Below, piece by piece: positions 7,264-24,680 of a stretch of DNA of 64,000 bases. Every line of letters begins with the position of its first letter. The stretch's first letter is position 1. Under the pieces are notes generated by a model, which was given only the letters and a program-made list of their open reading frames with translations, searched no databases and was not told where the DNA came from. The DNA is from Thermaerobacter marianensis DSM 12885. GTDB lineage: Bacteria > Bacillota > Sulfobacillia > Thermaerobacterales > Thermaerobacteraceae. The position numbers and the translations under genes are program-made. Location of the stretch: assembly GCF_000184705.1 (NCBI RefSeq), contig NC_014831.1:310001-374000 (forward strand). The letters run 5' to 3'.

Positions 7264-7520
7264 CCGCAGGCCGATGGGGCCGGGGACGCCGGGAGGGTCC
7301 CCGCCCGCTGCGGCGACCCACGCCCGCAGGGATCGGCGGTCGCCGGGCCGAACTGCCCCGTAGAGGCCGGCCGCACCGCCGGCGCGCGGCGGGCGCCCTC
7401 CACGGCCACGGGCAGCAGGCCGCCAGGGCCGCCCGCCCGGGGCCGGTTCGTCCGGAACAACGGGCTCTGACGAGGGCCCGGCCACCGGGCGCCGGGCCGG
7501 CCTGCGCGGGGGTGAACCAC

Positions 7521-8705
<1,185 letters not shown>

Positions 8706-8737
8706 GGCCGGTCCGGGGGCGCGGCGCCCGCCGGCCG

Positions 8738-8847
8738 GGCGGACCGGCCGCCCGGAGGCGAACCGGCCCTTCCAAGGCGGACCGGCTGCCTGGGAACGGG
8801 GCGGCGGCCCCGGGCGAACCAGCCGCCCCGGGACGAACCGGCCGCCG
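8738..8847. repeat. 19-bp-period degenerate tandem repeat array
   Basis: Cores resembling GGCGRACCGGCCGCC start at 8738, 8757, 8776, 8813 and 8832. The intervals are 19, 19, 37 (about two periods, with a decayed unit near 8795) and 19. The array fills most of the 193-bp gap between the thiolase stop and moeA. The last unit contains an exact copy of the dispersed 12-mer. A 19-bp period is not a multiple of three and no conserved frame is evident, so this is unlikely to be coding. A regulator-binding or iteron-like array is one reading; the function is unknown. Confidence 0.6.
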
Positions 8848-8898
8848 GCCGGCGCCCGGCCGGCAAGGCACCGGTCGTGAAGGGGGAGATCGGCTCCC

Positions 8899-10212
8899 GT
8901 GCCCGACAGATCGATCCTGCATGACGAACGGGGACCGCACGAGCCGCCGGGCCCGGGGACGCCCGGCTTCCGGGCGCCCTTCCCCACCGCGGGCCTGCCC
9001 ACGGTGGCCGAAGCCCGCCAGCGCATCCTGGCCGCCGCCGGCCGCCCGCCGCTGCAGGTCGAAGAACTTCCGTTGGCGGAGGCCCTGGGCCGGGTCCTGG
9101 CCAAGCCGGTGTACGCCCCGGAGGACGTTCCCGGGTTCCACCGCTCGACGGTCGACGGCTACGCCGTGCGCAGCCAGGATCTGCGCGGGATCCAGCCGGA
9201 CCGGCCTGCACGGCTGCAGGTCGTGGGCCGGGTCCTGGTGGGCCGCCCCGCCGACGTGCGGGTCGAAGCCGGCCAGGCCGTGGCCGTGCCCACGGGGGGC
9301 ATGCTGCCGCCCGGGGCCGACTGCGTGGTGATGTTCGAGCACACCAGCCGGGAGGGCCCGTGGCTTTTGGTGCACCGCTTCGCCGGGCCGGGCGACAACG
9401 TCATCGCCCGGGGCGAGGATGCCGTCGCCGGCCTCGCCCTGCTGGCCCCCGGCCGGCGCCTGGGCCCCGCGGACCTGGGCGCCCTGGCGGGTGCGGGCAT
9501 CACCCGCGTGGCGGTGGCCAGGGAGCCCCGGGTGGCGCTGCTGCTGACCGGCGACGAGGTGGTTCCTCCCGGCCGGAGTCCCGGCCCCGGCCAGATCCGG
9601 GACATCAACGGCGTCGCCCTGGCCGCCGCGTTGCGCCAGGACGGCGCCCGTCCCCTGGAACCGGTCTACGTGCCGGACGAACCGGCCGCCTTCCGCCAGG
9701 CCCTGCGCGACGCCCTGGCGGCGGCGGACCTGGTGCTGATCTCCGGCGGCAGCTCCGTGGGCGAGCGCGACCTGACGGCCGAGCTGGCCGCGGAACTGGA
9801 GTCGCCGGGGGTGATCCTGCACGGGGTCGCCTTGAAGCCCGGCAAGCCCACGCTCTTCGCCATGGCGGGGCGCACGCCGGTCTTCGGCCTGCCGGGCAAC
9901 CCGGTGTCCGCCCTGGTGGTGTACCGGCTGCTGGTGCGGCCGGTGATCTTCCGCTGGCTCGGCCTGGAGGAATCGCCCGGCCCCGGCCCCCGCATCCGCG
10001 CCCGGCTGGAGACGCCCTTGCGCCGCCCGCCGGGCCGGGAGGAGTACGTGCCCGTGGCCCTGATCTGGCGGGGTGGCGAGTACGGCGCCCGGCCCCAGCC
10101 GCGCAAGTCCGGGCTCATCACCGCCCTGACCGGGGCCCAGGGCCTGGTCCACCTGCCCCTGGAGGTGGAGGGCCTGCCCGCCGGCGCCGAGGTGGAGGTG
10201 ATCCCCTGGTGA
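8899..10212 (+). CDS. moeA: Molybdopterin molybdenumtransferase MoeA
   Basis: MoeA inserts molybdate into adenylylated molybdopterin, the last general step of Moco synthesis, in the cytoplasm. The 437-aa product shows [14 protein letters not shown], a [10 protein letters not shown] loop, the MogA-like domain with LLTGDEVV and [11 protein letters not shown], the [11 protein letters not shown] motif and a C-terminal beta-barrel domain. The start is GTG after GGGGGAGAT. The first ~30 residues are a Pro/Gly-rich extension. The stop overlaps the moaC GTG, so moeA and moaC are translationally coupled, with mogA next: a compact Moco operon. The enzyme that uses the cofactor is not in this window. 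Confidence 0.94.
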
Positions 10213-10823
10213 ACGGTTCCTCCCACCCGCCGGACGAACCGGCCTGGACCCACCTGGACCCCGCGGGCCAGGCGCGCATGGTGGATACCAGCGGCAAGGC
10301 GGCCACCGTCCGGGAGGCCGTGGCCCGGGGCCGGGTGCGCATGGCCCCTGCCACCCTGGCCCGGCTGCGGGCGGGGGCCGTGCCCAAGGGGGATGTATGG
10401 GCTGTGGCCCGGGTGGCGGGCATCATGGCGGCCAAGGAGACGGGCCGGCTCATCCCCCTGTGCCATCCCCTGCCCCTGGATGCGGTGACCGTCGACTTCC
10501 GGCTGGGGCCGGAGGCGGTGGAGATCCAGGCCACGGCCCGCACCGTGGCCCGCACGGGGGTCGAGATGGAGGCCATGGTGGCGGTGGCCGTGGCCGCCCT
10601 GACCCTGGTGGACATGTGCAAGGCCCTGGACAAGGGGATGGTCGTCGAAGGCATCCGGCTGGTGCGGAAGACCGGCGGGCGCAGCGGCGAGTATGCCCGG
10701 CCCGGCGAGCCCCCGTGGGAGGCGCTGGGCGACCCGGTGGGGCCCGGGGGGCGCGGCCGGGCCGGCGATGGAGAGGGCACCCAGGCCGTCCAGGCCGCCC
10801 AACAGGGGCCGGGCCCGGGGTAA
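10209..10823 (+). CDS. moaC: Cyclic pyranopterin monophosphate synthase MoaC
   Basis: MoaC converts the MoaA product (3',8-cyclo-7,8-dihydro-GTP) into cyclic pyranopterin monophosphate. The conserved body includes [42 protein letters not shown] and KTGGRSGEY; the last two hold the family's catalytic Asp/Lys region. GTG 10209 overlaps the moeA stop (GTGA). At 204 aa it exceeds the usual ~160: an N-terminal tail of ~20 residues contains the dispersed 12-mer (as PDEPA), and ~40 Gly/Pro-rich residues follow the conserved end. moaA is not seen here, so the operon supplies only part of the pathway. Confidence 0.93.
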
Positions 10824-13811: not shown

Positions 13812-14285
13812 TCACGATCGCGGGGCGGGGAGATCGTCACGCAGAGAACGCACGTAGGCCGGTTTGCGGTTGCCCAACTGGCGCAGCAAGGCGGTGTCGG
13901 CCGTCCAGAATTCGGCCGGGGTACCGGTGCCGGCGGCGGCCAGTTCGGTACATGCGAAGAAACCCGCGTCGTAGAGGGTCGGCAAGTCCAGGCGGCGGGC
14001 GATCTCCCAGGCGCGCCGGCGCAAGGAAGGGGATTCCACGTATTCGATGGGCAGGTCTTGACAGGCGGTCCAGAGCTGGGTGGCCTCGGTGATCTCGAGC
14101 AAGCCCATCCGTACCTTCTTCAACAATACCGAACCCAGTTCGGCCCAAGCCCACGCAGGCGCCACCAGCCGCGCGCCCTCCTGCAGGGCCCGGTCCACCA
14201 GCCTCGTCACCGCATCCTCCTGTTCGTCCGGGGTCAGAAACTTGACCAGGATGCTCGTGTCGAAGCACACGACCCGCTCACTCAT
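13812..14285 (-). CDS. PIN-domain toxin, VapC-like
   Basis: PIN domains are Mg-dependent ribonucleases; VapC toxins typically cleave tRNA or rRNA. The 157-aa product has the expected acidic cluster: Asp9 (VVCFDTSILVKF), Glu49 (WAWAELGS), Asp106 (LYDAGFFACTE) and Asp130 (FWTADTALL). ATG 14285 is chosen because it overlaps the upstream antitoxin stop (ATGAGTGA), typical translational coupling; an ATG six codons upstream lacks a ribosome site. It runs leftward against groEL and guaA and is the only obvious accessory module in this part of the window. The pair-type call is an inference from gene order and motifs. Confidence 0.85.
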   Translation of the reverse strand: MSERVVCFDTSILVKFLTPDEQEDAVTRLVDRALQEGARLVAPAWAWAELGSVLLKKVRMGLLEITEATQLWTACQDLPIEYVESPSLRRRAWEIARRLDLPTLYDAGFFACTELAAAGTGTPAEFWTADTALLRQLGNRKPAYVRSLRDDLPAPRS

Positions 14286-14538
14286 CCCGGGCTTCCCCTT
14301 CACGCAGCGCCCGGATGAGGGGGATCGGGTCCGGGTGTACGCCGGTGCGTTCCCGAATGGCCTGGCGCAACCGGACGATGGTGTCGCGGGCCCGGAGCGC
14401 CTGCCGGCGCGTGATTTCGCGGCGGGCTGCTGCGACCAGGAAGTCGTTCAGCGACTCCCCGGGCTCCTGTACCTGCCGGATCCCGGCCAGCAACTCGGCG
14501 GGAACCCGTACCGTCAAGGGGTGGCGGCCTTCCGCCAC
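14278..14538 (-). CDS. Probable antitoxin of the PIN toxin (ribbon-helix-helix-like)
   Basis: A small, charged 86-aa protein immediately upstream of and overlapping the PIN toxin gene. Its N-terminus HPLTVRVPAELLAGI looks like a ribbon-helix-helix strand and first helix, followed by LNDFLVAAARREITRR and a long basic helical tail that would wrap the toxin. I use GTG 14538 because GGGGAGGGG precedes it. The frame stays open to an ATG at 14625, which would add 29 Arg-rich residues, but that start has no good ribosome site and overlaps the guaA promoter region. The family is not identified beyond fold and position. Confidence 0.7.
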   Translation of the reverse strand: MAEGRHPLTVRVPAELLAGIRQVQEPGESLNDFLVAAARREITRRQALRARDTIVRLRQAIRERTGVHPDPIPLIRALREGEARDE

Positions 14539-14598
14539 GGTGACCCCTCCCCGACGCCGGCGATTCCGTTCTCGAAGAGTCCGTCCCGCCCACGGTCC

Positions 14599-14615
14599 TG
14601 CTACAATGATATCAT
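14599..14615 (+). promoter_or_regulatory. Extended -10 promoter for guaA with overlapping palindrome
   Basis: TGCTACAAT (14599-14607) is an extended -10 element pointing to guaA; no good -35 is seen, as is common for extended -10 promoters. It overlaps the perfect 10-bp palindrome ATGATATCAT (14606-14615). The palindrome lies between the divergent guaA and antitoxin genes, so it could be the antitoxin operator and couple the two units. Confidence 0.5.
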
Positions 14616-14757
14616 CTTGTGACATCGGTCCATGCCATCACGGCACGCCGAGTTGGCTCCAGCCCGCGGGCCACAGCCCGCAGGAACCGGCCTCGCATCC
14701 GGTGCCTGCGTTCACCGTGCGGTCCCGCCCGTGCCGGGCGAGAAGGGAGCGATGCGC

Positions 14758-17053: not shown

Positions 17054-19963
17054 ATGAAACCCTCAGGGGTCGTGGCGCGCTACATGGCGGTGGTGGCCGC
17101 GGCGGGCTTGCTGGGCGTCGCGGCCCTGGCGGTGGTCGAGGCGGCGCCGCCGTCGGCCCTGTCTCTGCTGCTCGGGGTCGCCTTGCTGATCGCCGAGCTG
17201 TGCCAGGTGATGTCGGCCGGCGGCGAGGCCGTGTCCATGGGGTCGCTGGTGGTGCTGGTCGCCCTGTGGCTGCTGGGGCCGGCCGTGCCCGTGTGGGCCG
17301 AGGTGGTGGGCTGGTGCCTGGTGGGCGCGTGGCGCCGGTCGCCCGGCCTGGTGGTGGCCTTCAACCTCGGGCAGACGGTGCTGGCGGTCCTGGCGGCGGC
17401 GGCAGCCTTTCGCCTGGGCGGTGGCGATTGGGGCTTGCCCCTGGCGAGCGGGGACTCCGTCGTGCCCTACCTGGCCAGCGCCGCGGCCTTTGGCCTCGTC
17501 AACGCGGCCCTGGTGGCGGCCGCCTTTGCCCTCTACAAGCGGGTTCCCTTCCGCGAGCAGTGGCGCGACTACATGGTCGCCGACAGCTGGCGCCTCGCCG
17601 TATCCTGGCTCCTGGCCCTGGGGGTCTACGTCCTCTTCACCCGCCACGACTACCCGCCCGCCGCGCTGGCCGTCTTCCCCGTCCTGGCCGTCATCCACCA
17701 GGTCGGGACCTCGGTCTGGACCCGCCGCCTGCGCCAGCGGGCGGTGGAGCGCTTTCTCCGCACCCTCCACGCGGACCTGGAGGTGGTGCGCCGGGCCGAA
17801 CTGCTGGTCCGGCTGGTGACGAACCTGGCCGAGTCCCTGGGGGTCGGCGGCCGCGAGCTGGACAACCTGCGCCATGCGGCCCTGCTCCACGAGGCGGGAG
17901 GACCCCGCCCGCTGGGGGTGGGCGAGAGCGAACCGGCGCCGGACCTGCTGGTTCGGCATGCCCTGGCCTCGGCCCGCGAGGTGGCCCGCATCGTGGTGCT
18001 GGAGCCGGTGGCCCGCATCCTCCGTCACCACCACGAACACTGGGACGGCACCGGCGGTCCCGATGGCCTGAGGGGAACGGCCATCCCCCTGCCCAGCCGC
18101 GTCCTGGCGGTGGCGGAGGCGTACCTCTTTGCCCTGCAGCGCTGGGGCGACGCCGATGCGGCCTGGGACGCCGTCCTCCGGCGGGCCGGCAGCCGCTACG
18201 ACCCCCAGGTGGTCGAGGCCCTGGCGGGCGCCCGGGATCTGGTGGGATGGGCTGCCGAGCCCCGTCTCAGCGTGGTGGGCGAGCTGGCCGTCGCCGCCGA
18301 CCAGTTGCGCCGGTTCGTCCGGGAGGAAGGGTGCCGGAGCGGTGGCCGCGGGGTCGGCTTCCACGACGACCACCTGCTGCGCCAGGCGGCGGGCGGGGTG
18401 GTTGCCCTGTCCCACTTCGCGCGGGTGATCAACGCCACCTTGCGGCCGGACCAGGTGGCCGAGCGGGTGCTGGACACCTTCCTGGAGGTGTTGGGCGGCC
18501 GCGTCCTCTGGCTGGTCCCGGCCGGACCGCCCGCCGTGTTGCGGGTGGCGGGGGTGCGCAACGCGCCGCCGGATCTGGTGGGCGGGGAGCTGGACCTCAA
18601 CCGGCCGCCCTTCCGCCAGCTGGTCGAACAGGACAAGGCGCTGGTCATCCGGCTGGAGCCGGACCAGGGGCCGTCCTGGTTGCTGGGTGGCCAGCGGCGC
18701 TGGATCCTGGCGGTGCCGCTGGTGGCTCGGGGCCAGCTGCTGGCGGCCGTGGTGGTGGTGCGGGACGGGCCGCCGCCCTATCCCTTCACCCAGGGGAACC
18801 TGCTGGACGTGGTGGCCAGCCAGGCCGCCTTGAGCCTGGACAACGCCCGGCTGTTCGAGCAGGTCCAGCTGCGCCTGCAGGAGCTGACCTCCCTCAAGCG
18901 GTTCCAGGACCTGGTCTTCGAGCAGGTGGGGACCGGGATCGTCGCCGCCGACGCCACGGGCACCGTGACGCTGGCCAACCGCACGGCGGCCGAGATCCTC
19001 CGGCGGGCGGGATGGCCGGGCTGCCAGCTGCCGCCGCCCCGTCCCTTGGGCGCGGGCAACCCCTGTGATAGCATGCTGCTGGAGCAACTGACCGCACGCC
19101 ATCCCCTGCCACCGCGGACGTGGGAGCTGGAGGCGGAGGACGGCAGCCCCCTGGTCGTCACGGCCCAGGCCTTTCCCCTGGTGGGGCATGACGGAGAGCG
19201 CGCCGGGGCCGTGGTCCTCCTGCGCGACGTGACCCAGGAACGGGAACTGGAACAGCGGGCGCGCCGCTCGGAGCGCCTGGCGGCCGTGGGCCAGCTGGCC
19301 GCCGGTGCCGCCCACGAAATCCGCAACCCGCTGACCGCCATCAAGGGCTTCATCCAGCTGATCGGGCGGAAGCTCGAGGGGGAGGCGGCGGGCTACATGG
19401 ACATCGTGCTCCAGGAGATCGATCGCATCGAGGGGATCGTCAACGACCTGTTGCTGCTGGCCCGCCCGCCCAAGCCGCGGCTGCGGCCGGTGGACGTGGG
19501 CGGGCTGCTGGCCCGGCTGGTGGAGATGATCCGCCTGGACGAAGCGGCCCGCGGGTGTACCGTAGAACTGGCCGTGGCCGGTCCGCTGCCGCCGGTGGTC
19601 GCCGACGAGGCCCAATTGCGCCAGGTGTTCCTGAACCTGGTTCGCAACGGCCTGGACGCCATGCCGGCGGGCGGCGTGCTGCGGGTGCGGGCGCTGTACG
19701 ACCGGGCTACGGACACGGTGCAGGTCGAGGTGGAGGACCGCGGCCCCGGGATTCCGCCCGAGCACCTGAACCGGATCTTCGATCCGTTCTTCTCGACCAA
19801 GGAGGGCGGGACGGGCCTCGGTCTTGCCGTGAGCTACGGCATCGTGCGCAACCACGGCGGGCACATCGACGTGGACAGCGAGCCGGGGTGCGGCACGCGG
19901 ATGCGGGTCGTGCTGCCGGTGGCCGGGCCGGCGGGACAGCCGGCTCGTCCGGAGGGGAGCTAG
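17054..19963 (+). CDS. Orphan membrane sensor histidine kinase with degenerate HD-GYP, GAF and PAS domains
   Basis: The 969-aa protein begins with about six membrane segments (residues 1-215). An HD-GYP-like region follows (about 229-395) in which the catalytic signature is degraded: LLHEAG replaces HDIGK, and HHHEHWDGTGGPDG keeps the frame of HHERxDGxGYP but has GGP. A GAF-like domain (about 460-600), a PAS domain (about 614-729; VGTGIVAADATGTV), HisKA with phospho-acceptor His754 in AAHEIRNPLTAIKGFIQLI, and an HATPase with NLVRNGLDAM, DRGPGIP and GTGLGLAVSYG complete it. The HEIRNPLTxIKGFxQL box resembles Bacillus sporulation kinases. No response regulator is adjacent; pcrA and ligA follow closely. 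ATG 17054 follows TGGAG; GTG 17030 would add 8 residues. Signal and partner are unknown. Confidence 0.9.
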   Translation: MKPSGVVARYMAVVAAAGLLGVAALAVVEAAPPSALSLLLGVALLIAELCQVMSAGGEAVSMGSLVVLVALWLLGPAVPVWAEVVGWCLVGAWRRSPGLVVAFNLGQTVLAVLAAAAAFRLGGGDWGLPLASGDSVVPYLASAAAFGLVNAALVAAAFALYKRVPFREQWRDYMVADSWRLAVSWLLALGVYVLFTRHDYPPAALAVFPVLAVIHQVGTSVWTRRLRQRAVERFLRTLHADLEVVRRAELLVRLVTNLAESLGVGGRELDNLRHAALLHEAGGPRPLGVGESEPAPDLLVRHALASAREVARIVVLEPVARILRHHHEHWDGTGGPDGLRGTAIPLPSRVLAVAEAYLFALQRWGDADAAWDAVLRRAGSRYDPQVVEALAGARDLVGWAAEPRLSVVGELAVAADQLRRFVREEGCRSGGRGVGFHDDHLLRQAAGGVVALSHFARVINATLRPDQVAERVLDTFLEVLGGRVLWLVPAGPPAVLRVAGVRNAPPDLVGGELDLNRPPFRQLVEQDKALVIRLEPDQGPSWLLGGQRRWILAVPLVARGQLLAAVVVVRDGPPPYPFTQGNLLDVVASQAALSLDNARLFEQVQLRLQELTSLKRFQDLVFEQVGTGIVAADATGTVTLANRTAAEILRRAGWPGCQLPPPRPLGAGNPCDSMLLEQLTARHPLPPRTWELEAEDGSPLVVTAQAFPLVGHDGERAGAVVLLRDVTQERELEQRARRSERLAAVGQLAAGAAHEIRNPLTAIKGFIQLIGRKLEGEAAGYMDIVLQEIDRIEGIVNDLLLLARPPKPRLRPVDVGGLLARLVEMIRLDEAARGCTVELAVAGPLPPVVADEAQLRQVFLNLVRNGLDAMPAGGVLRVRALYDRATDTVQVEVEDRGPGIPPEHLNRIFDPFFSTKEGGTGLGLAVSYGIVRNHGGHIDVDSEPGCGTRMRVVLPVAGPAGQPARPEGS

Positions 19964-19982: not shown

Positions 19983-22358
19983 GTGGCGGACTTGCTGGCG
20001 GATCTCAACCCGGCCCAGCGGGAGGCGGTCACCCATCCCGGCGGTCCGGTGCTGGTGCTGGCCGGCGCCGGCAGCGGCAAGACGCGGGTGCTGACGCGCC
20101 GGGTGGCCTTCCTGCTGGAGCAGGGGGTGGCGCCCCACCAGATCCTGGCCATCACCTTCACCAACAAGGCGGCCCGGGAGATGCGGGAGCGGGTGGAGCA
20201 GCTGGTGGGGACCGGCGCCCGGGACATGTGGATCGGCACCTTCCACGCCAGCTGCGTCCGCATCCTGCGCCGGGACGGCTACCGGATCGGCTACGACCGG
20301 AACTTCATCATCCTGGACGAGGACGACCGCCGGTCGGTGCTGCGGGACGTGCTCAAGGAGCGCAACCTCAGCGAGACCCGGTACCCGCCCAACGCCGTGG
20401 GCGGCATGATCTCCGCCGCCAAGAACCAGCTGCTGGACCCCGAGGAGTTCGCCGCCCGGCACCGGGACTTCTACCGCCAGCAGGTGGCCGCCGTGTACGC
20501 CGCCTACCAGGAGCGGCTGCAGCGCAACGGCGCCATGGACTTCGACGACCTGCTGATGCAGGCCGTGCGCCTGCTGGAAGAGGCGCCCGACGTGCTGGCC
20601 TACTATCAGCGCCGGTTCGTCCATATCCTGGTGGACGAGTACCAGGACACCAACCATGCCCAGTACCGGCTGCTGCGGCTGCTGGCGGCGGGACACCGCA
20701 ACCTGTTCGTGGTGGGCGACCCGGACCAGAGCGTCTACCGCTGGCGCGGCGCGGACATCACCAACATCCTGCGCTTTGAGGAAGACTATCCCGACGCCCG
20801 GGTGGTGCGCCTGGAGCTGAACTACCGCTCGACGGCGTCCATCCTGGGCGCCGCCCAGGCGGTGATCGAGCACAACACCCAGCGCAAGGAGAAGCAGCTG
20901 CGCTCCGTCCACGGCGAGGGGGCGCGCGTGGTGGTGTTCGGGGCCGCCGACGAGCACGACGAGGCCTGGTTCGTCGCCCGGGAGATGGAACGCCTGCACG
21001 GCGAGGAAGGATACGGTTACGGGGAGATGGCGGTCCTCTACCGCACCCATGCCCAGTCCCGGGTGCTGGAGGAAACCCTGCTGCGCCGCGGCATCCCCTA
21101 CCGCATCGTGGGTGGCCTGAAGTTCTACGAGCGCAAGGAGGTCAAGGACATCCTGGCCTACCTTCGCCTGGCGGTGAACCCCGACGACCGCATCAGTCTG
21201 CGGCGGGTGATCAACGTGCCGCGGCGCGGCATCGGCGAGGCCACCCTGGCCCGGCTGGAGGCGTACCTGGACCGCGAGGGCGTCGGCCTGCTGGACGCCC
21301 TGGCACGGGCGGAGGACATCCCCGGCGTCACCCGGCCCCAGGCGGCGGCGCTCATGGCCTTCGGCGGGGTCATCGCCGACCTGCGGGCCATGGCGGAGCA
21401 GCGGCCGGCCTACGACGTCATCGCCCTGGCCCTGGACCGCACCGGGTACAAGGAGATGCTGGAGCAGGAGCAGACGCCCGACGCCATGAGCCGGCTGGAG
21501 AACCTCAAGGAGCTGCTCTCCGTGGCTCGCGATTTCGAGCGCCAGCGGGGGGCGGGGGACGCGCCGCTGGTCGACTTCCTGGCGGAGGTGGCGCTGGTCA
21601 GCGACGTGGACCAGCTGGACGAGGGGGCCCGCGCCGTCTCCCTGATGACCCTGCACAGCGCCAAGGGGCTGGAGTTCGACGTGGTCTTCATCACGGGGAT
21701 GGAGGAGGGGGTCTTCCCCCACAGCCGGTCCCTGGACGACCCCCACGAGCTGGAGGAGGAGCGCCGCCTTTGCTACGTGGGGATGACCCGGGCGCGGCGG
21801 CGGCTGTACATGTGCTTCACCCGCCAGCGCACCCTGTTCGGCGCCACCCGGCGGCAGGTGCCCTCCCGCTTCCTGGAGGAGGCCGACCAGCGGTACCTGG
21901 AGTGGCAGGGGTTGCCCCCCGGCTCGGACGAACCGGCCTTCGGCGACGGCGGGGACGCCTGGGAGGCGGGTGCACCCGCCTGGCGCGGTGCCGGGGCCCG
22001 GTGGGGTGCGGCGGGCCGGCCGGGCCGCGGGAGCGGGGCGTTCGGCTGGGACCGCGGCCGCGGCGGTCCGGGTGGAGGAGCCGGCCTGGACGGACGGGCC
22101 CGCGGCGGGCCGGCCTGGAACGGGCGGGGTGCCAGCGAGACGGCTGGGGCGACGCTCCGCGGCGACGGCACCTGCGGCCCCGCGGCCGCGGGCGGGGAAC
22201 CCTTCCGGCCGGGGGAGCGGGTGGTCCACCCGCGCTTCGGCGAGGGCACCATCGTCATGCGCCGGGGCGAGGGCGACGACGCCGAGGTGACCATCGCCTT
22301 CCCGGATGCCGGCCTGAAGACGTTCATCGTCCGTTATGCCAACCTGCGGCGGGCGTGA
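19983..22358 (+). CDS. pcrA: ATP-dependent DNA helicase PcrA/UvrD
   Basis: PcrA is a 3'-5' superfamily 1 helicase for repair and replication-transcription conflict. The 791-aa product has LNPAQREAV (Q motif), Walker A AGAGSGKT (about residues 27-34), TFTNKAAREM, Walker B LVDEYQDTN, VGDPDQSVYRWRGAD and the late LMTLHSAKGLEFDVVF and VGMTRARRRL. A Gly/Ala/Arg-rich linker (about 654-737), longer than in Bacillus and containing one dispersed 12-mer as SDEPA, leads to a C-terminal Tudor-like domain (GERVVHPRFGEGTIV), which in PcrA contacts RNA polymerase. The start is GTG after AGGAGGG, 19 bp after the kinase stop; ligA follows by 27 bp. Confidence 0.96.
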   Translation: MADLLADLNPAQREAVTHPGGPVLVLAGAGSGKTRVLTRRVAFLLEQGVAPHQILAITFTNKAAREMRERVEQLVGTGARDMWIGTFHASCVRILRRDGYRIGYDRNFIILDEDDRRSVLRDVLKERNLSETRYPPNAVGGMISAAKNQLLDPEEFAARHRDFYRQQVAAVYAAYQERLQRNGAMDFDDLLMQAVRLLEEAPDVLAYYQRRFVHILVDEYQDTNHAQYRLLRLLAAGHRNLFVVGDPDQSVYRWRGADITNILRFEEDYPDARVVRLELNYRSTASILGAAQAVIEHNTQRKEKQLRSVHGEGARVVVFGAADEHDEAWFVAREMERLHGEEGYGYGEMAVLYRTHAQSRVLEETLLRRGIPYRIVGGLKFYERKEVKDILAYLRLAVNPDDRISLRRVINVPRRGIGEATLARLEAYLDREGVGLLDALARAEDIPGVTRPQAAALMAFGGVIADLRAMAEQRPAYDVIALALDRTGYKEMLEQEQTPDAMSRLENLKELLSVARDFERQRGAGDAPLVDFLAEVALVSDVDQLDEGARAVSLMTLHSAKGLEFDVVFITGMEEGVFPHSRSLDDPHELEEERRLCYVGMTRARRRLYMCFTRQRTLFGATRRQVPSRFLEEADQRYLEWQGLPPGSDEPAFGDGGDAWEAGAPAWRGAGARWGAAGRPGRGSGAFGWDRGRGGPGGGAGLDGRARGGPAWNGRGASETAGATLRGDGTCGPAAAGGEPFRPGERVVHPRFGEGTIVMRRGEGDDAEVTIAFPDAGLKTFIVRYANLRRA

Positions 22359-24680
<2,322 letters not shown>

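Follow-up and report, generated by a model that had tools for sequence, protein, structure and literature searches.

Why does a sensor histidine kinase carry, at its input side, an HD-GYP domain that has lost catalytic residues, what does such a kinase sense, and where does its phosphoryl group go? The kinase in question is encoded in the 64-kb window analyzed here, i.e., positions 310001 to 374000 of the Thermaerobacter marianensis genome, a complete single contig of 2,844,696 bases. From the N to the C terminus, it consists of a membrane domain followed by HD-GYP-like, GAF, PAS, HisKA, and HATPase domains (Table 1). The fusion of a degenerate HD-GYP domain to GAF, PAS, and HisKA, which an earlier note on this DNA had proposed, is borne out by Pfam (HD_5 at residues 244–386, E = 4.7e-19) and by Foldseek. 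PAS_4 is also matched in 17 of 20 members of the kinase family, and an Rfam scan of the window gave no match. The AF2 model of residues 1–422, which like the other model used here is of a monomer and is based on a 42-sequence alignment (pLDDT 90, pTM 0.82), comprises seven membrane helices, a stalk helix, and the HD-GYP helices. Among solved structures, Foldseek returned DvhD (9RBZ), PA4781, V-cGAP3, PmGH, and Bd1817, each with probability 1.00. The HD-GYP fold is thus present in the predicted structure, and the fold gives no ground for rejecting the earlier reading. The interpretation that we favor, at a probability of roughly 0.5, is that the protein is a membrane-bound, ligand-sensing orphan kinase of the Spo0 type, in which a dead HD-GYP domain would serve as a transmission module.

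Table 1. Features of the kinase locus (window positions; residues refer to the kinase)
Feature	Position	Strand	Residues	Basis or remark
Orphan sensor histidine kinase	17054..19963	+		ORF, 969 aa, stop within coordinates
Membrane domain of seven helices (divergent MASE9 type; fold predicted to be ECF S-component-like)	17066..17644	+	5–197	AF2, Foldseek, hhalign
Long stalk helix running into the HD domain	17657..17770	+	202–239	AF2 model
Degenerate HD-GYP domain	17777..18238	+	242–395	Pfam HD_5, Foldseek, residue scoring, dN/dS
LLHEAG	17882..17899	+	277–282	HD motif Asp to Glu; position of catalytic Lys deleted
RHHHEHWDGTGGP	18023..18061	+	324–336	Double His retained; GYP Tyr to Gly
AVAEAYLFALQRWGD	18107..18151	+	352–366	D305 and D308 equivalents gone; RPYK ligand loop deleted
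GAF domain	18443..18841	+	464–596	Pfam GAF_2
PAS domain	18917..19246	+	622–731	Pfam PAS_4, just under cut-off
HisKA	19286..19465	+	745–804	Pfam; phospho-acceptor H754, specificity residues TAGFQL
HATPase_c	19604..19921	+	851–956	Pfam; N, G1, F, and G2 boxes intact
pcrA (UvrD/PcrA helicase), conserved neighbor	19983..22358	+		19 bp downstream of kinase
ligA (NAD-dependent DNA ligase), conserved neighbor	22380..24680	+

With respect to catalysis, the residues can be compared with those of PmGH, which has an HD-GYP fold like that of the window kinase, but is active and is not a kinase. In this enzyme, alanine at H189, H221, D222, H250, H276, H277, D183, K225, or D308 leads to loss of activity, and alanine at E185 or D305 reduces it (PMC4159591). 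Four of the seven scored metal ligands (the set H189, H221, D222, H250, H276, H277, and D305) are kept in the window kinase, where H279 corresponds to H221, H302 to H250, and H326 and H327 to H276 and H277. Equivalents of H189, D183, and K225 are missing; D222 is replaced by Glu (E280), and Glu and Leu are found at the positions of D305 and D308, respectively. Moreover, the GYP Tyr (Y285 in PmGH) is Gly, giving GGP, and the RPYK loop is deleted together with the equivalents of PmGH R314 and K317. Residue scoring thus confirms the loss of the GYP Tyr stated in the earlier note, while its statement on the HD pair in LLHEAG goes slightly too far: the Asp is gone and the His is kept. Since D222, D305, D308, H189, D183, and K225 are lost or changed, and most of them are essential in PmGH, it is a safe inference from the residues that the domain is dead as an enzyme. 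The retained His residues H279, H302, H326, and H327 would be the basis for regarding the domain as a still active phosphodiesterase and the kinase as bifunctional, but alanine at most of the lost positions abolishes PmGH activity, and we consider this reading extremely improbable. Bd1817, which is not a kinase either, has the HD-GYP fold without the GYP Tyr and does not hydrolyze c-di-GMP; it keeps its di-iron site.

Kinase orthologues were gathered from ~19 families of the class; the search for the architecture beyond the class used kinase-core patterns and covers the matches listed. Across these ~19 families, the HD-GYP motifs hold their positions, a pattern far from chance. For comparison, 16 HD-GYP enzymes were scored, of which 14 are standalone and share the membrane domain of the kinases; the other two are further HD-GYP proteins encoded in the source genome. 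None of the 16 has lost any of the seven scored ligands, the Lys, or GYP/GFP. Included in the 14 is a paralogue from the source genome (genome positions 225556–227004; ~28% identity to the window kinase over 361 aa), which, like its 13 standalone relatives, has the same order of membrane domain and HD-GYP domain and no kinase. Among the orthologous kinases, the catalytic Lys is kept in none of those having sequence at that position, and only two (L047 and L127) keep all seven metal ligands. On the kinase-core tree, each metal ligand has been lost ~3–8 times and the GYP Tyr ~5 times. The simplest reading of this history is that an ancestral MASE9-HD-GYP enzyme was fused to a kinase, that the Lys was lost early, and that parallel erosion followed. 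A two-gene counterpart of the fusion is seen in Brevibacillus: at three loci (L203, L217, and L226), a PAS-HisKA kinase gene is immediately preceded, in the same orientation, by an HD-GYP gene whose HHE...GYP region is intact.

Repeated decay of the metal ligands is also what would be expected if the HD domain were a mere passive relic or spacer, and one pcrA-linked orthologue (L055; G044, 7892–10276) has no recognizable HD domain. This explanation, however, has to account for the constraint on the segment. Within the genus, its dN/dS is 0.17–0.26, which is indicative of purifying selection, compared with 0.24–0.46 for GAF, 0.35–0.42 for PAS, and 0.13–0.22 for the kinase core. The values for the HD segment are thus below those for PAS and mostly below those for GAF, i.e., the constraint is at least that on the sensory GAF/PAS domains. 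In addition, no member of the kinase family deviates at G284 or P286 in the GYP loop, and HD_5 is detected in 19 of the 20 aligned members. The dN/dS values thus show that selection maintains the dead domain, and a relic or spacer therefore appears improbable. In one congener (L036; G001, 7377–8892), the kinase is split near residue 657 by a ~1.6-kb insertion with transposase-like ORFs; hence, the gene can be dispensed with.

The earlier note had suggested that the degenerate domain was converted into a ligand sensor. The best structural and full-length domain match of the window kinase is DvhD from Desulfovibrio vulgaris (9RBZ and 9RC0), likewise a receptor in the membrane whose HD-GYP domain is catalytically dead; this domain binds c-di-GMP, and the stalk helices splay (PMC13090378). 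DvhD has a periplasmic dCache domain, PAS, and HD-GYP and no kinase, whereas the window protein is a kinase. By analogy, the HD-GYP domain would be a receptor for c-di-GMP (or cGAMP), and the kinase would couple the c-di-GMP level to its output. The canonical-site contacts in DvhD are Y523, L577, K582, Y621 (the GYP Tyr), M646, R650, Y652, and E668 (PMC13090378). According to the alignment, none of these eight is present in the window kinase, in addition to the absence of PmGH Y285, R314, and K317 noted above, and for this kinase the c-di-GMP-sensor reading is consequently weak. Furthermore, a conversion of the DvhD type predicts conserved ligand residues, but the GYP Tyr has been lost repeatedly in the family. 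Nine orthologues do keep the GYP Tyr together with the Arg and the Arg/Lys of the ligand loop and, judging from these residues, could still bind nucleotide. GYP along with RPYR is retained in the orthologues L040, L041, and L049. Moreover, two GGDEF proteins are encoded in the source genome, and c-di-GMP inhibits early sporulation in C. difficile (PMC8653836); these two observations keep the idea alive. Collectively, c-di-GMP sensing appears plausible for parts of the kinase family and weak for the window kinase, and we regard a DvhD-like receptor function as unlikely.

The N-terminal seven-helix membrane domain was absent from the earlier note. Pfam MASE9 (PF20972) is matched in 18 of 41 aligned relatives (best 8e-13), with the window kinase below threshold, and a few aligned relatives weakly match ECF S-component families. 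The AF2 model of the domain has a pLDDT of 93.7 and a pTM of 0.90, and nearly all of its high-probability Foldseek matches are ECF S-components. The match to TmRibU has probability 1.00, TM-score 0.70, and rmsd 3.5 Å; FolT, CbiM, and 4huq_S follow at 0.98–0.99, and ThiT, BioY, and NikM are further matches, with E-values that are weak throughout (best 7e-3). Comparing the profile of the family with that of 30 S-components from relatives (hhalign) gave a score of 35.7 (P = 5.5e-5, 140 columns), compared with 13.6 for the reversed profile and ≤12.5 for shuffles used as controls. Thus, the MASE9-type membrane domain probably has an S-component-like fold. It would share this predicted fold with RibU, FolT, ThiT, BioY, and CbiM at ~12% identity; unlike these proteins, it appears as a sensor fused to signaling modules, and no ECF module is fused to it. 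A literature search on the MASE9 membrane domain found no paper, and one on HD-GYP with GAF in the genus gave nothing useful. On the basis of the models, the membrane domain is a better candidate sensor than the HD-GYP domain. The proposed conversion to a ligand sensor is accordingly weakened where c-di-GMP is concerned, by the missing DvhD contacts, and the ligand would rather be sought at the membrane.

Turning to the output side, the H, N, G1, F, and G2 boxes of a HisKA-type kinase are all present and, apart from one F-to-Y change in the F box, invariant in 27 orthologues. The likeness of the phospho-acceptor box to that of Bacillus sporulation kinases, which had been noticed earlier, extends to the specificity residues: the H-box HEIRNPLTAIKGFIQL yields TAGFQL, the very set listed for KinA and KinE (Table 1 in PMC6136694). 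Nearly all of the 27 orthologues keep TAGFQL or close variants, and among the six HisKA kinases of the source genome that were read, the window kinase is the only one with a TAGFQL-type H-box, although similar residues may be widespread among HEIRNP-type kinases generally. Bacillus KinA to KinE and D. acetoxidans Dtox_1918 are also orphans, usually with PAS, a HEIRNPLTAIKGF-type box, and TAGFQL; to our knowledge, an HD-GYP input is not known in any of them. That the kinase is an orphan is upheld by the 64-kb window, in which no receiver gene was found. It is the only orphan of its type in the genome that is not explained by a neighbor. Another orphan kinase, at genome position 1989264, adjoins a phosphate-uptake operon and was for this reason set aside as PhoR-like.

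Which components could receive the phosphoryl group? Spo0A is present in the source genome; given that it is found in 143 of 154 genomes, its phylogenetic profile relative to the kinase is uninformative. The candidate for Spo0B is a SPOB_a protein (L158; G000:2660337–2660489) adjoining rpmA and obgE, the hallmark position of Spo0B, and it has the residues QVGWQL compared with QVGLQL in D. acetoxidans. No Spo0F was recognized in the source genome or in three congeners. Of the 21 receivers of the source genome, those considered were the CheY proteins at 2250217 and 2526879, a stand-alone receiver at 1660193, and a degenerate one at 1202691; they were rejected, as they are without the Q-G-I/V-L-E-V signature. 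Spo0F-like proteins are encoded beside a transaldolase-like gene in a number of genomes from the class (loci L273, L276, L279, L284, and L271), and four of these genomes, G017, G031, G040, and G047, also bear the kinase. With Spo0A and a Spo0B candidate present and Spo0F not recognized, a Spo0 output of the window kinase is favored but incomplete. The same applies to the earlier suggestion of a phosphorelay kinase, for which the genome search supplied Spo0A and not Spo0F.

The genes downstream of the kinase bear on the same issue. At 22 related loci, which represent many families, pcrA lies on the same strand within ~0–300 bp of the kinase, and ligA is usually next where the contig allows. The distance to pcrA is ~3 kb in two loci (L051 and L130), and at two further kinase loci (L058 and L129) pcrA was not found; guaA is upstream of the kinase in only five related loci. 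There is strong reason to regard kinase-pcrA-ligA as a genomic unit, and from the gene order co-expression of the kinase with pcrA and ligA is likely. A scan for promoters from the kinase to ligA gave none of the sigma-70-like kind, and a scan for terminators gave a single candidate site, inside the kinase gene, which is below the chance mean; in such GC-rich DNA, both results are uninformative. The link to pcrA and ligA that the earlier note drew is real and conserved as a neighborhood; a tie of the signal to DNA metabolism is suggested by the gene order. Verified sporulation kinases have no conserved neighborhood (PMC6136694); the window kinase differs from them both in its conserved pcrA neighborhood and in that Spo0F was not found in its genome.

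In this context, the kinase might instead feed a receiver outside the Spo0 pathway, e.g., the stand-alone receiver at genome position 1660193, which is not a CheY, or a regulator of DNA metabolism tied to pcrA-ligA. DNA repair and replication genes as conserved neighbors and the unrecognized Spo0F are both in line with such an output. However, TAGFQL is the signature of Spo0F kinases and is kept, or nearly so, in 27 orthologues, and relatives bearing the kinase have Spo0F-like genes beside transaldolase. Genomes bearing the kinase also have Spo0A, although Spo0A is near-universal in the class. A non-Spo0 output is therefore a possibility to be taken seriously, yet doubtful.

For the reading that we favor, a Spo0-type orphan kinase with a ligand-sensing membrane domain, the following mechanism can be proposed. 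The input half would derive from a MASE9-HD-GYP phosphodiesterase that became fused to a GAF-PAS-HisKA-HATPase kinase. As suggested by the fold, a small ligand would bind to the S-component-like membrane domain, and the long stalk helix would relay the ligand-induced change to the HD domain. In the genus, this domain is probably a conformational transmission module rather than a c-di-GMP sensor. GAF and PAS would integrate the signal and set the autophosphorylation of H754, from which the phosphoryl group would most likely enter the Spo0 pathway (Spo0A and the Spo0B candidate, with Spo0F not recognized). The kinase would then be the KinA-type input of the lineage. A broader scenario, which we offer tentatively and consider less probable than this mechanism, is that an S-component-like fold was recruited as the MASE9 receptor, first in phosphodiesterases and then, by fusion, in a class-wide kinase of the sporulation type. 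Its HD-GYP domain would have died repeatedly and become a mechanical relay, and the kinase, expressed together with PcrA and LigA, would make sporulation responsive to a vitamin-like molecule.

Every domain of the protein is already known; what is new is their combination, together with a probable S-component-like sensor and the parallel death of HD-GYP among the kinases of one family. The family offers a natural series, from HD-GYP domains with all catalytic residues to others with almost none, in which an output domain has turned into an input inside a kinase, and experiments can draw on matched intact paralogues. Should MASE9 indeed have the S-component fold, this would name a candidate ligand class for an orphan membrane sensor domain. 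The field of sporulation initiation gains a candidate kinase with a conserved gene neighborhood, which is unusual. Elsewhere in the window, a gene for a PIN-domain protein (13812–14303, minus strand) is preceded by a small ORF without a Pfam match (14278–14625, minus strand), and the two look like a toxin-antitoxin pair of the VapBC type.
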